Source of the DNA: Hoyosella altamirensis
Lineage (GTDB): Bacteria > Actinomycetota > Actinomycetes > Mycobacteriales > Mycobacteriaceae
Assembly: GCF_014191505.1 (NCBI RefSeq)
Contig: NZ_JACHWS010000005.1
Span: 1 to 64,000, forward strand
Length of the DNA: 64,000 bases
Direction: 5' to 3'
Shown: piece after piece, positions 22,202 to 27,227 of the stretch
Position numbering within the stretch: position 1 is the stretch's first letter
Layout of the letters: every line of letters starts with the position of its first letter
Made by a program: the position numbers and the translations under genes
Notes under the pieces: generated by a model
Database searches by the model: none
Told to the model about the DNA's origin: nothing
The model's input: the letters and a program-made list of their open reading frames with translations, nothing else

Positions 22202-23451
22202 ACCCGTACCTGGTGGCGCGGTTGCCAGTTGGACAGCTCGCGGAGAACGCGGTCCGTGATGTTTCGCGCGCACTGAGCGAATACCATGCCGCAATCGGCT
22301 CCCAGCCGCCTGCTCTGGTAGCGACAGCGGAACGCATCGCGGCGGCGTTCAGGTCCGACCAGTTGTTTCGGTGGCGGGGTAAACCGGCAAGCGCCTTCGC
22401 GCCGCACTCAGGATTCTTCCGGACCGTGGACGGCTGGGTGCGGACCCACGCGAACTATCCGCACCACAGAAGTCGTCTTCTCACATTGCTCGGTTTGCCA
22501 GACCGTGCAGACCGGGACAGCCTGGCTCGCGAACTGAGTCGCCGCGCATCTGCCGAAATCGAGTCAGCTGCCGTCGATGCCGGCGCGATCGCGGTGCAAG
22601 TCCGTCCCGAATCCGTGTGGCGGACAAGTCCGCAAGGCAGTGTTGCGGCCAATGTTCAATTCAGGCGACGCGATGACCGGTTACGCGCAGCCCCTTCGCT
22701 GAACGGTCTCGCAGGCCTTCGAGTGGTCGACATGACGCGGGTCATTGCTGGCCCTGTCTGCACGCGGACGCTCGCACTGCTGGGGGCGACGGTTCTCCGT
22801 ATCGACCCGCCCCACATGCCCGAGATTGGCTGGCAACATCTCGATACAGGACAAGGGAAATTCAGCACAGTAGCCGACCTGCGGACTCACGCTGATCGCC
22901 ACTCGGTTGCAGAAATCATCAGCACCGCAGACGTCTTTGTCACCGGTTATCGGCCCGGTTCGCTGGCGGTCTTTGACCTTCCAATCGTCCCGGGGATGGT
23001 TCGCGCCGAGGTTTCCGCATGGGGCTGGCACGGCCCGTGGCGAATGCGCCGTGGGTTCGACAGCATCGTGCAGGCAGCAAGCGGGATCTCTCTGATCGAG
23101 TCTGCGGATGGCGAAACTCCCGGAGCGCTCCCAGCTCAGGCGCTCGATCATGCCTCTGGCTACTTCCTGGCCGCCGGGATAATCAGGGCACTTACCAAGC
23201 GCCTCGAGGACGGCCACGGCCACGATGTCATGGTATCGCTGGCGGGGACAGCGAACCGGCTTCTCGATCTGCCGGGACGCCAGTCCGAACGCGGTAATCA
23301 GGCCGCTCCCCCGCAGTCCACGACAATCGGGCACGGCGACTGTGTCTACGCGCGTCCTGTGTTCAACGAATTTCCCGATTATCGCTGGCCGACCCACCCC
23401 TGGGGCGAGGACGCTCTATCGTGGCCAGCCGCTAAAGGTCCCGAACGGTGA
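22198..23451 (+). CDS. Family III CoA-transferase-like protein, permuted domain order
   Basis: This is a 417-residue CaiB/BaiF-related protein. Residues 65-145 (SGFFRTVDGWVRTHANYPHH onward) resemble the C-terminal small-domain region of family III CoA transferases. The normal N-terminal signature LAGLRVVDMTRVIAGPVCTR starts only at residue 171 and is followed by QHLDTGQGK, VTGYRPGS and QALDHASGY. The two halves therefore occur in reversed order compared with FRC/CaiB. It is coupled to the DUF2784 gene by a GTGA overlap. Its 3' end overlaps the convergent FHA gene by 20 bp. The CoA donor and acceptor are unknown. Confidence 0.8.
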   Translation: MNPYLVARLPVGQLAENAVRDVSRALSEYHAAIGSQPPALVATAERIAAAFRSDQLFRWRGKPASAFAPHSGFFRTVDGWVRTHANYPHHRSRLLTLLGLPDRADRDSLARELSRRASAEIESAAVDAGAIAVQVRPESVWRTSPQGSVAANVQFRRRDDRLRAAPSLNGLAGLRVVDMTRVIAGPVCTRTLALLGATVLRIDPPHMPEIGWQHLDTGQGKFSTVADLRTHADRHSVAEIISTADVFVTGYRPGSLAVFDLPIVPGMVRAEVSAWGWHGPWRMRRGFDSIVQAASGISLIESADGETPGALPAQALDHASGYFLAAGIIRALTKRLEDGHGHDVMVSLAGTANRLLDLPGRQSERGNQAAPPQSTTIGHGDCVYARPVFNEFPDYRWPTHPWGEDALSWPAAKGPER

Positions 23452-24052
23452 TGACCCCGAGCTGCATCGCTCGTTCGGCGAGCTGTGAGCGTTTCTGATT
23501 TTGCGGTAACTCCTCCACCTGAAACTTCGCAAACAAGGTGCGCAGGTGTGTCTTCACCGCGTCAACGCTTAGGAAAAGTTCGTCGGCGATCTGCTGGTTT
23601 GCGGCCGGCCGCGCGAAAGACGCATTGTCCTTGTACGGTCGGCACAGCGCGATGAGAACGTTCCGTTGTGTCTCCGTCAGAACCGGCACTCCGCCGCTCG
23701 AAGATCCGACGCGCGTTGTGGTTCCGGTAGACCCCAGCATGTCCTCGAAGGTCAGCGCTGTCTCGCCGACCAGGATGACGTCCTTGTGCCGCAACCGACG
23801 GCGACCCGTGATGCGCTGGCCGTTGACGAAGGTCCCGTTGCGGGACAATCCATCGTCAACGACCGTCCATTCGCCCGCGATTGTTTCGAGCGCCGCGTGC
23901 AGGCGGGAAACCTGACTGTCACCCGCAAGCGAAATGTCCGCTTGCTCAGAGCGCCCGATCGTCAATCGCGATACATCCGTCGGGAAGTCCCAGTACCGCC
24001 TCCTTCCTGCTGCGTCACTGACGTAAACACGCCACCGTCCGGGCTCTTCCAC
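23432..24052 (-). CDS. FHA-domain protein with C-terminal winged/LuxR-like HTH
   Basis: This 206-residue protein has an N-terminal FHA domain (about 27-105) with the phosphothreonine-binding residues in LTIGRSEQADI, SRLHA and SRNGTFVNG. A C-terminal region (125-206) starts LTETQRNVLIALCRPY and contains ANQQIADELFLSVDAVKTHL, typical of DNA-binding HTH segments. It is therefore likely a transcription regulator gated by a phosphorylated partner. It is the last gene in a leftward set with a Ser/Thr kinase and a DUF4333 lipoprotein. The kinase is an obvious candidate partner. The start is GTG after GAGG. Confidence 0.85.
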   Translation of the reverse strand: MEEPGRWRVYVSDAAGRRRYWDFPTDVSRLTIGRSEQADISLAGDSQVSRLHAALETIAGEWTVVDDGLSRNGTFVNGQRITGRRRLRHKDVILVGETALTFEDMLGSTGTTTRVGSSSGGVPVLTETQRNVLIALCRPYKDNASFARPAANQQIADELFLSVDAVKTHLRTLFAKFQVEELPQNQKRSQLAERAMQLGVITVRDL

Positions 24053-24122
24053 GGGACCTCATTTCGCTGTGACTTCGTTCACAGCCTAGCCAAGGCACGG
24101 ACACTCCGGCCATTTCTCCCAC

Positions 24123-24626
24123 TCACTCGTCCTCATCGAGTGACCAGTACACCTCGCCATCAGCCTCCACTGTCGCGACCGCCGCGAACTCTTCGTCGTC
24201 CTCCGGAGAAACCACGCACCGAACTGAGGCGTCGGCAGTGTTTTGCAGCTCGGATTCACACGACACCTCAGTGGCATCGAATCCCGTGATTCGCGAGAGG
24301 TCGAGTTCGAGGTCTGCAGCCCCGTAGGTGACGATGTCCGCGACCTCCCACTCAAAGTCGACGTCGTTGCCATCAACGGAGGCGGCGCGGGCTTCGACGC
24401 GGTACTCGGTGTCGAGTGAGTCGACGAACGTACAGCTCACTGTCGCCCCTACCTCGGCATCAAGAGAATCAGGGCACTCCAGGGACGCGGGCGCCTCACC
24501 CGTCTGCTCTTCGAGCCCCGCGGAAATCTCCGCTTCCAGATCGCTAGTGGAAACGCTCGACGAACAACCCGCAATCAGCAGCGCGCTCGCCGCAAGAACA
24601 GCCCCCGTCATGATTTCGCGCCGCAT
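24123..24626 (-). CDS. DUF4333 lipoprotein
   Basis: This 167-residue secreted lipoprotein has a short positively charged N-terminus and the lipobox LLIAGC with Cys21. It carries two DUF4333-like copies: residues 31-90 (LEAEISAGLEEQTG, SLECPDSLDAEVGATVSCTF) and a divergent second half with VSCESELQNTADASVRCVV. Each has a Cys pair likely to form a disulfide. The ribosome binding site AGGGGAGATGCG is strong. It lies between the kinase gene and the FHA regulator gene in the same direction, so it may be the extracytoplasmic part of that system. Function unknown. Confidence 0.85.
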   Translation of the reverse strand: MRREIMTGAVLAASALLIAGCSSSVSTSDLEAEISAGLEEQTGEAPASLECPDSLDAEVGATVSCTFVDSLDTEYRVEARAASVDGNDVDFEWEVADIVTYGAADLELDLSRITGFDATEVSCESELQNTADASVRCVVSPEDDEEFAAVATVEADGEVYWSLDEDE

Positions 24627-24718
24627 CGCATCTCCCCTGGTAAACGCCAGCGCGGCGAAGTACCGCTAGGGCGTGATGCCGAAAGATTATCAATCTCGCA
24701 CGGCTCAAGTGCGGCAGA

Positions 24719-27163
24719 TCACGATCTCTCAGCGGGATGCGAGGGCTCCGTTGTGCGCAGGCCCGAGGCGACCACCCGCTCGAGAGCGCGGAGGTCGTCC
24801 TCCATCAAGCGGTACAGCCAGTAGGCGACCACGAAAGCAACGATTATGAACATGGCGGGCACGCTGAGTCCGGTAATCACTTCCTGCACGTCCTCCGGCG
24901 ACAAGAACGTCACCGCATACACGCCGGCCAGCGGGACCAGCGCCGCGATTGGCAGATAAATCATGCAGCGCTTACGCAGCCCCCGCAGCCTCCGCGCATC
25001 GTCGACGGTTGGCTGACCGTGTTTGAGGAACATCGGATAGATGCAGCGCAACAGATAAAAATTGAGAAGAAAGAACGGATAGAGGACTGCCAGCGCCCCA
25101 TGAACGGAAAGAGAACTGAGAAAGTGCAGATACGCACCAGGCGGAAGCGTACCGCCGGACACTTCCAGGCCGATGGGGATGCTGAACGCGGCGGTGAGCC
25201 AGAACCCGAAGATCACCATTACGACGCGGTCCCCTAGCAACAGGGTATCCGCTCGCACATGCGCGAGAGTCTCTGGATCGTATTGCTTTCCCTTGCGAAG
25301 GCCCCGGGGAATAACCAGAAGCCGTCGGCCAAAGGTCAGTAGCAGCACAGCGCCGATCGGCCAGAGGATCCCATTTGTGAGCCCCACGGCTGTCCAGAAG
25401 GCGGCCTCCGTCGCGGCATCCGTTTTGCCGATGATGAGCGAGTGGTTGTGTGTGGTGTTGTACACCCCAGCGAGAGCATTCGGTGCGGCAATCGCAAGGA
25501 ACGCGATCGGGAACAGCCAGCGCTCCATCCGGGCACGCCAGCTTCGCGGTGGCGGGTCGACGAGGTCGCGCGCATGTGGATCGAGGCAGAGCTCGAACTG
25601 CTGCGCGAGGATCGCGCCTGAGGACCAGCGGTCGTCACGGTCGCTCTCCAGGCACACACGCAGGACCCGCAGGAGCGTGGCCGGACAGTCAACCGGCACC
25701 GTCGCCTCAGCTTCCGGTGCAATTCCCTGTTCCCGCAGATCGAGCATATTGCCGAGCGCGACCTGCGTCTCCGCTGACAGCGACTCCTCTCCGAAAGGCC
25801 GCTTCCCGGTGAGCAGCTCCCACAGGACAACTCCGAGGGAGTAGATGTCGCTCCGGGTGTCGAGATCAGCCGGTGTCCGGCCATGTCCGGGATGGCATGC
25901 TTCGAGCTGTTCGGGCGACATGTAGGCGAGCGACCCGCCGAAGTAGGAGACGGGATTATCACCTGCGATCTCGTTGCTGAAGCTGATGTTGAAGTCAGCG
26001 AGCTTAGGGACACCGTCGGTGGTCAGGAGGATGTTCGCTGGCTTCACGTCCCGGTGCAGCACGCCGTGGTCGGCCGCATAATCGAGGGCGAGAGCAAGAC
26101 ATCTCCCCAGCCAGGCAACCGCTTCCGGCCAGGACATCGCGCTGATCATCATGCGCACAGGGGACTCGCTGGGACGGATCGCCGCCTTCTCAGCCAGAAC
26201 GTCATCTATCGCGTCGAGCAGGAGTCGGCCCGTACGATCGTCCGGTGGAGTCGACCGGACACGCTGCAGAACGCCCTGCAACGTGCCGCCGGCAACATAC
26301 TGCATGTACAGCAGCCGGGCATTGTGGCTGCGCAGCACCCGCTGGTCGAAAACGCGAACGATGTAATCGTGGTCAAGTTGCGCGAGCGTTTGAGGCTCTG
26401 TCCCGTGATCATGCGAGACCTTGACGGCCACAAGGCGCTGCATGGATCGCTGGCGTGCGAGGAAGACACGCGCGAAGGCGCCACTGCCGAGCGATAACAA
26501 AAGATCGAAGTCGTCGAGTTGCTGACCCACCTCGACGTCGTCGAGCGTGGGACGTGCGGCGCCCGGAGCCGTGGCCGCCCGGCTGCCCACAGATCGGTCA
26601 CTCTTCGGAGGGCTCGCGGCGGTGCGAGTAGCAGACTCGTCGAGCCAGCCGGTGCCGGGCTGCGGTGCGGTTCGGTCGTCGGGAAGTTGCGTGTCTTCTC
26701 CGAGCATCTCCCCGAGCCGCACAGCATTTCCGGGATACCGCCGCTGATACTCACTGAGTGAAACGTTCTCTCCGGCTTGTCTGCGGACAGTGAACTCCAC
26801 CGCGATCAGATCGGCAGGCAAGGGAGCGGATTGCAATTCTGGGAACTCCGCAACATACTCACTCAGCCGCTTTGGGTTATGGAACTCCAACCATCGAAAA
26901 TGCAGATCGACCTTGATGAGTTCCATTAGCGAGAGCCGGCGCAACTCAGGAGATGTGGACACAAACCGGCGCAGCTCAGGTGGCTGGCCCTGAGACTCCC
27001 ACTCGAGCGCAAAGCGCCGGGCTACATCCGCTGGTACAGAAAGCCCCTGCGTCACGCCCTGCGCTGCCCAGCTCAGGCCACTGCGGGACGCTGCCTCCGC
27101 TTCGGCCCGCGAACGACGTGATTCCTTCATCGTGCACCGACCGCCCAGTCGTCCTGGTATCAC
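24719..27163 (-). CDS. Polytopic Ser/Thr protein kinase with atypical DFN motif
   Basis: This 814-residue kinase has an N-terminal helical region (about 40-155) ending in RRQAGENVSLSEYQRRYPGNA, similar to the leader of planctomycete-type kinases. The catalytic domain (218-515) has LGSGAFARVF, Lys248 in VAVKVS, HRDVKPANILL (Asp372), DFN instead of DFG at 390-392, and YMSPEQL. An insertion of about 40 residues lies near 303-345. The C-terminal 260 residues hold six or seven transmembrane helices, unlike the single-span PknA/PknB kinases. The GTG at 27163 is 9 bp after TATCCT; ATG 27130 is the alternative. It heads a leftward set with a lipoprotein and an FHA-HTH regulator. Confidence 0.88.
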   Translation of the reverse strand: MIPGRLGGRCTMKESRRSRAEAEAASRSGLSWAAQGVTQGLSVPADVARRFALEWESQGQPPELRRFVSTSPELRRLSLMELIKVDLHFRWLEFHNPKRLSEYVAEFPELQSAPLPADLIAVEFTVRRQAGENVSLSEYQRRYPGNAVRLGEMLGEDTQLPDDRTAPQPGTGWLDESATRTAASPPKSDRSVGSRAATAPGAARPTLDDVEVGQQLDDFDLLLSLGSGAFARVFLARQRSMQRLVAVKVSHDHGTEPQTLAQLDHDYIVRVFDQRVLRSHNARLLYMQYVAGGTLQGVLQRVRSTPPDDRTGRLLLDAIDDVLAEKAAIRPSESPVRMMISAMSWPEAVAWLGRCLALALDYAADHGVLHRDVKPANILLTTDGVPKLADFNISFSNEIAGDNPVSYFGGSLAYMSPEQLEACHPGHGRTPADLDTRSDIYSLGVVLWELLTGKRPFGEESLSAETQVALGNMLDLREQGIAPEAEATVPVDCPATLLRVLRVCLESDRDDRWSSGAILAQQFELCLDPHARDLVDPPPRSWRARMERWLFPIAFLAIAAPNALAGVYNTTHNHSLIIGKTDAATEAAFWTAVGLTNGILWPIGAVLLLTFGRRLLVIPRGLRKGKQYDPETLAHVRADTLLLGDRVVMVIFGFWLTAAFSIPIGLEVSGGTLPPGAYLHFLSSLSVHGALAVLYPFFLLNFYLLRCIYPMFLKHGQPTVDDARRLRGLRKRCMIYLPIAALVPLAGVYAVTFLSPEDVQEVITGLSVPAMFIIVAFVVAYWLYRLMEDDLRALERVVASGLRTTEPSHPAERS

Positions 27164-27227
27164 TACTCGCCCAGGATACGCCCGGTTCGTTACGGTTTAG
27201 GGCACTTGCGCGTCGCGCGCCTTCGCT

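Follow-up and report, generated by a model that had tools for sequence, protein, structure and literature searches.

The window analysed here, a stretch of 64,000 nucleotides from Hoyosella altamirensis (contig NZ_JACHWS010000005.1, positions 1 to 64,000), whose genome comprises 4.76 Mb, carries on its minus strand three genes which, in the order of reading, encode a polytopic Ser/Thr protein kinase (STPK), a lipoprotein of the DUF4333 family and a regulator combining an FHA domain with a LuxR-type helix-turn-helix (HTH) domain (Table 1). The coordinates in the list of open reading frames (ORFs), where the kinase frame spans 24719–27163, and the domains called with Pfam over curated cut-offs agree with a first-pass annotation, which had described three same-strand genes of this kind and interpreted them as a three-part signalling cassette.

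The trio is intact in all three Hoyosella genomes that were searched, the genome of the window and two others (G001 and G002). The reading frames are kept in both of the latter, with identities of 98% (G002) and 83% (G001) for the FHA gene and of 96% (G002) and 76% (G001) for the kinase, and we thus consider them real genes rather than chance ORFs. The FHA protein of Hoyosella sp. YIM 151337 is 83% identical to the regulator of the window. For the kinase, a start at the ATG at 27128–27130, yielding a protein of 803 residues, appears more likely than one at the GTG at 27163, because the ORFs of G001 and G002 both begin at the corresponding ATG; kinase residue numbers are nevertheless counted from the GTG. 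Transcription of the trio as a single unit is plausible, since the scan located no terminator-like site in either of the intergenic gaps of 92 and 70 bp, with the promoter and terminator scans altogether returning no more sites than in shuffled sequence.

Table 1. Features of the kinase, lipoprotein and regulator genes in the window.
Feature	Position	Strand	Basis
FHA-LuxR regulator, 206 aa, GTG start	23432..24052	-	Pfam FHA and GerE; AlphaFold2 model
GerE/LuxR-type HTH core	23504..23602	-	Pfam 1.3e-6, 28.4 bits (cut-off 23.5)
Thr113 codon in FHA-HTH linker, candidate phosphoswitch	23714..23716	-	T in 112/116; linker pLDDT <50
FHA domain	23765..23962	-	Pfam 63.5 bits; motif residues conserved
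DUF4333 lipoprotein, 167 aa, lipobox Cys21	24123..24626	-	Pfam PF14230 1.8e-18, 67 bits (cut-off 27)
Hanks-type STPK, 803 aa: N-terminal region, kinase domain, about six transmembrane helices	24719..27130	-	Pfam Pkinase 1.3e-35, 123.5 bits
C-terminal transmembrane region of kinase	24824..25519	-	Matched in 81/261 family genomes and a planctomycete
Kinase domain	25595..26494	-	VAVK Lys and HRD present, DFN for DFG, activation loop without Thr
Block upstream of kinase start, possible promoter	27162..27184	-	CGGGCGTATCCTG.GCGA.TAGT aligned in three Hoyosella genomes

In the regulator, the FHA domain, which also matches the FHA-like family PF16697, is located at the N-terminus and the GerE domain at the C-terminus, with both FHA and GerE scoring over their cut-offs and no SARP domain among the over-cut-off Pfam matches. 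The FHA motif is intact and, among the 116 regulators underlying our final counts, conserved at R34 (108), S49 (115), R50 (110), H52 (116) and N72 (115), as are the HTH residues K167 (113/116) and H169 (115/116). A model obtained with AlphaFold2 from six sequences (mean predicted local distance difference test score (pLDDT) 77.9, predicted template modelling score 0.50), whose residue numbers are one lower than those of the ORF, places strands at residues 6–103, a region with a pLDDT below 50 at 107–120 and a helical C-terminal domain with four helices at 126–196. In a Foldseek search, the FHA part finds GarA and OdhI as best and thus closest matches, with EmbR within the first 17, and the titles of matched structures include phosphorylated OdhI, the FHA domain of DgcB with a phosphorylated N-terminal peptide and the FHA domain of MDC1 with an MDC1 phospho-T4 peptide. 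The FHA domains of GarA and OdhI bind a phosphothreonine of their own protein, and OdhI, DgcB and MDC1 offer precedents for an FHA domain that reads the protein it belongs to. In GarA and OdhI, which are not known to contain an HTH, the phosphorylatable threonine precedes the FHA domain, whereas the conserved threonine of the Hoyosella regulator follows it. The resemblance to EspM, an FHA-containing ESX-1 regulator of Mycobacterium marinum, is weak, as the FHA part matches the NCBIfam model with 27.3 bits, far below its cut-off of 550. The genome of the window holds one FHA-LuxR gene, besides a second, weak match (E 3.7e-4) interrupted by a stop, and a scan of genome contigs yielded numerous matches to FHA alone and few relatives of the FHA-LuxR type.

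The conserved threonine, Thr113, resides in the linker between the two domains, which is otherwise variable and predicted to be disordered. A threonine occupies this column in 112 of the 116 regulators (the exceptions being L090, L084, L231 and L074) and in 32 of 35 in a set where no pair is more than 70% identical, with the next-best linker columns before the HTH boundary being 120 (Pro in 90/116) and 124 (Ser in 79/116). Independently of any alignment, a threonine is found exactly 22 residues past Asp91 in 81 of the 96 regulators used for this count and for the tree described below. At least one acidic residue (Asp or Glu) is present at positions –1 to –3 of Thr113 in 96 of the 112 proteins.

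The kinase contains the catalytic lysine and the aspartate of the HRD motif, with K248 found in 35 and D372 in 36 of 37 kinase sequences, within a Pfam Pkinase match that is split into two stretches. In line with the first-pass annotation, which had called the protein polytopic, the hydropathy profile displays about six hydrophobic stretches behind the kinase domain. These are connected by short loops and, on the same basis, the protein harbors no large external sensor domain, which distinguishes it from PknH of Mycobacterium tuberculosis, where such a domain is present. The activation loop of the Hoyosella kinase contains no threonine at all, a property found in 16 of 36 kinases overall, Hoyosella among them. 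What is new here is the near-invariant Thr113 in the regulator linker beside a Hoyosella kinase whose activation loop lacks threonine.

Next we turn to the distribution of both genes in 261 genomes of the family, where the kinase was scored by its transmembrane family and the regulator by its close FHA-LuxR family (E up to 1e-40). Both were found in 73 genomes, the regulator only in 8, the kinase only in 8 and neither in 172 (Fisher p 9e-46, kinship ignored). This count omits six g29 genomes, whose FHA-LuxR genes are distant (best E 5.8e-29 to 3.6e-31) and in all cases adjoin an STPK gene, and upon their addition the numbers change to 74, 13, 7 and 167. Counted by hand at the level of genera, both are present in 12 of 31, the regulator only in 2, the kinase only in 1 and neither in 16 (p 7.6e-6). 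Seven of the eight kinase-only genomes belong to genus g24, with a divergent kinase, and the eighth (G220) contains a distant FHA-LuxR gene. One genome (G033) was scored as FHA-only, and is missing from the 21 neighbouring cases described below, with its kinase being cut by a contig end.

The two genes also tend to be found next to each other. Around 115 FHA-LuxR genes, 21 STPK genes were detected within 3 kb (669,353 bp) compared to 2 beyond (639,046 bp), which corresponds to an approximately tenfold higher density. The pair of the window is not part of the 21 cases, each of which is located in a separate locus, although several of these loci are close relatives and six are g29 pairs. The arrangement is tandem in Hoyosella and L074, divergent in L078, L087, L233 and the g16 loci L082, L194 and L210, and convergent in L066, L079, L067, L224 and other g29 loci (L237–L241). 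The neighbouring kinases differ as well, being polytopic by match of the transmembrane region in L076–L078, L087 and L233, equipped with Kelch repeats assigned by Pfam in L067, L082 and L239 or with NHL in L232, and carrying no further Pfam domain in L066 and L224. On a tree of 96 FHA proteins, in which 19 of 93 inner forks are open, the pairing with a polytopic kinase takes three changes, at least two of which are forced by well supported branches when compared to the other labelled rows only; nine rows are labelled as Kelch, by Pfam for L067, L082 and L239 and by genus and position for six.

The family-wide co-occurrence together with the repeated and differently arranged adjacency suggests that kinase and regulator form a two-gene core and act as partners, and this part of the first-pass annotation is thus upheld at the level of sequence comparison. 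Alternatively, the FHA-LuxR proteins could read the targets of other kinases and their neighbourhood in Hoyosella would be accidental. Such a scenario would account for the lsr2-like gene located within 4 kb of 30 of the 115 FHA-LuxR genes (including those in L062, L092 and L204), 26 of which have no STPK gene within 3 kb, and for the 8 of 261 genomes with a regulator but without polytopic kinase. We regard it as improbable in light of the strong co-occurrence and of a tenfold enrichment that extends over several separate arrangements.

The wider surroundings of these genes were also inspected. Their conserved neighbourhood consists mostly of housekeeping synteny (lysS-lsr2-clpC) and provides no functional clue, and a large cluster, which was considered from FHA-kinase distances of about 25 kb in several genomes, was dismissed since the intervening genes look like conserved housekeeping genes, as judged from sequence starts and order with only lsr2, lysS and clpC used as anchors. 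In several loci, the FHA-LuxR gene is located between lysS-lsr2 and clpC. In the genome of the window (L264), the genes lysS, lsr2 and clpC adjoin each other and no FHA-LuxR gene is found among them, and in L060 (8229–10226, G026) a polytopic kinase occupies the position between lsr2 and clpC that is elsewhere held by the FHA-LuxR gene. Perhaps there was an ancestral order lsr2-FHA-kinase-clpC, which was later split.

Taken together, we propose that kinase and regulator constitute a two-gene phospho-signalling pair, with the lipoprotein being a Hoyosella-specific extra, a reading to which we assign a probability of about 0.5. The kinase would be anchored by about six membrane helices with its catalytic domain in the cytoplasm, and an envelope or membrane cue of whatever kind would set off its activity. 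It would then phosphorylate the regulator in the linker, most likely at Thr113 and in Hoyosella possibly also at Thr111 and Thr112, the FHA domain would bind the resulting phosphothreonine in the same molecule (in cis) or in a second one (in trans), and this interaction would alter the pairing of the LuxR-type HTH and its binding to DNA and thereby transcription. We favor a switch inside the regulator, because the activation loop of the Hoyosella kinase is devoid of threonine and the regulator contains a conserved one beside its FHA domain. In the main rival explanation, the FHA domain would instead bind a phosphothreonine of the autophosphorylated kinase, which would present the regulator as substrate and leave the linker threonine with a secondary or structural role. 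This mode of docking is reported for PknH-EmbR (PMC4601284, PMC9239209), and candidate sites exist in Thr179 of the N-terminal linker, which is common to 20 of 36 kinases, and in a threonine at position 402 of the activation loop, found in 13 of 36. The latter position is an aspartate in Hoyosella and, because its loop contains no threonine, as is the case for 16 of the 36 kinases, the linker of the regulator offers the better docking candidate, which renders this alternative rather unlikely. The FHA protein might also serve chiefly as a brake on its kinase, a role with reported precedents in MupFHA-PknQ and EmbR2-PknH (PMC4238996), and the HTH would then be used for autoregulation only. The high conservation of the HTH residues K167 and H169 points to DNA binding as main function, and we consider such a role highly improbable.

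Several observations weigh against the proposed two-gene pair with its switch in the linker. Kinase and regulator do not always co-occur, and their joint presence in part tracks phylogeny. Outside the genus Hoyosella, most genomes have the two genes in separate places, and no STPK gene was detected within 3 kb of 94 of the 115 FHA genes. The kinase contains DFN in place of the DFG motif, as do 36 of the 37 kinase sequences, and its catalysis is thus putative, even though the aspartate is retained. The activation-loop threonine at position 402 leaves FHA docking at this site open for other genera. In Hoyosella, the sequence around Thr113 (GTTTR) lacks the acidic residues found in front of it in most regulators, and the residue could be conserved for a structural reason. 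Finally, the genome of the window, which contains 12 Pkinase matches at E 1e-10, encodes a second polytopic kinase of this family (L075 9341–11674, G000:C1) that is 51% identical to the first, and the surrounding 20-kb locus gave neither an FHA-LuxR nor a DUF4333 match.

The DUF4333 protein contains a visible lipobox (ASALLIAGC) with Cys21 as predicted site of lipidation, as had been recognized in the first-pass annotation. Its proposed role as outside sensor that controls the kinase in a three-part relay would be compatible with the order and strand kept in three Hoyosella genomes, with the short gaps lacking terminator-like sites and with a kinase that itself lacks a large external domain. 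By coordinates, and across 61 genomes, Hoyosella is the only genus in which a DUF4333 match was located near the kinase or FHA genes, with the nearest other case about 44 kb away. Among 140 fetched loci, the two that gave a match to the protein of the window are both from Hoyosella, in a search that a divergent DUF4333 could escape. Of the 61 genomes, 43 contain DUF4333 matches, irrespective of the presence of the kinase, and the protein is the fastest-changing of the three (70.9% identity to its counterpart in G001 compared to 83.5% and 74.5%). A survey of other genomes, as suggested in the first-pass annotation, thus recovers the trio in Hoyosella and nowhere else in our sample. We have therefore rejected a conserved three-part cassette as general unit and regard the relay as quite doubtful. 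The lipoprotein instead looks like a local addition in Hoyosella, outside the general system, where it may modulate the kinase. In two genomes the family is expanded to 11 (G003) and 6 (G033) matches, several with two domains per open frame.

Among the papers listed by the literature searches, which were not read for this purpose and exclude most subscription journals, none was recognized as a description of the trio, of the pairing of a kinase with FHA-LuxR proteins in mycolata or of the linker threonine. The first-pass annotation likewise knew of no such three-part arrangement, but pairs of Ser/Thr kinases and FHA transcription factors are known, as are FHA-LuxR proteins. By analogy, the Hoyosella pair would work like PknH-EmbR, while being built from other protein families. 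In Mycobacterium tuberculosis, the genes of this kinase and its FHA transcription factor reside in one operon (PMC9239209) and the FHA domain is required for the phosphorylation of EmbR (PMC9239209, PMC4601284). The respective genes are likewise neighbouring in Hoyosella, although with DUF4333 in between in three of three genomes. Whereas EmbR is a SARP with an OmpR-type HTH, a BTAD and a C-terminal FHA domain, the Hoyosella regulator carries its FHA domain at the N-terminus and an HTH of the GerE/LuxR type, and its kinase has about six transmembrane helices and no large external domain. Proteins of the same FHA-LuxR architecture were listed in a census from 2012 and placed in Rhodococcus and Nocardia (PMC3466318), whose available portion mentions neither a tie to a kinase nor a linker threonine. 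In PknQ-MupFHA from a plasmid of M. ulcerans, STPK and FHA genes share one neighbourhood and an interaction is reported, with no LuxR HTH mentioned for MupFHA in the part of the article at hand (PMC4238996).

The kinase family itself extends further. A kinase of the planctomycete Rhodopirellula sallentina (L262 7046–9541) is 37% identical over residues 196–773 and resembles the Hoyosella protein in its N-terminal region, the DFN motif and the C-terminal transmembrane part. A second one (L263 6241–8730) matches in the kinase and transmembrane parts, without DFN, and no FHA-LuxR gene was found in either of these two loci, which sets them apart from Hoyosella. In three actinobacterial genomes (from L096, L097 and L099), matches are confined to the kinase domain, near E 1e-19, or missing. 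The family appears to be shared by planctomycetes, of which one genome was sampled, and mycolata, and has perhaps spread by transfer between phyla. In L083 (G017), four polytopic kinase genes are found in 14 kb, three of them consecutive, in what is a lineage-specific expansion. As for the immediate surroundings of the trio, a sigma-70 consensus scan returned no site in the block upstream of the kinase start listed in Table 1. Upstream, the trio is preceded on its own strand by a nitroreductase-like gene, and a CoA-transferase ORF of opposite orientation lies downstream. The gene order is mostly kept in both other Hoyosella genomes, with the CoA-transferase missing from this place in G001.

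In a wider and more tentative interpretation, which we view as possible although less probable than its converse, FHA-LuxR proteins would be a general class of response regulators for the Ser/Thr kinases of mycolata, where a fixed linker threonine is phosphorylated and read by the FHA domain of the same protein, and which are recurrently paired with sensor kinases of differing input (with six transmembrane helices, a Kelch propeller, an NHL propeller or plain), akin to histidine kinases and receiver-HTH proteins in two-component systems. By what route bacterial Ser/Thr kinases act specifically on transcription is an open question, and the discrimination of kinases among most of their partners remains to be determined (PMC4601284). 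The recurrent pairing of kinases with FHA-LuxR proteins and a single candidate phosphosite would supply many parallel and directly testable cases, in which Thr113 narrows the test to one residue.

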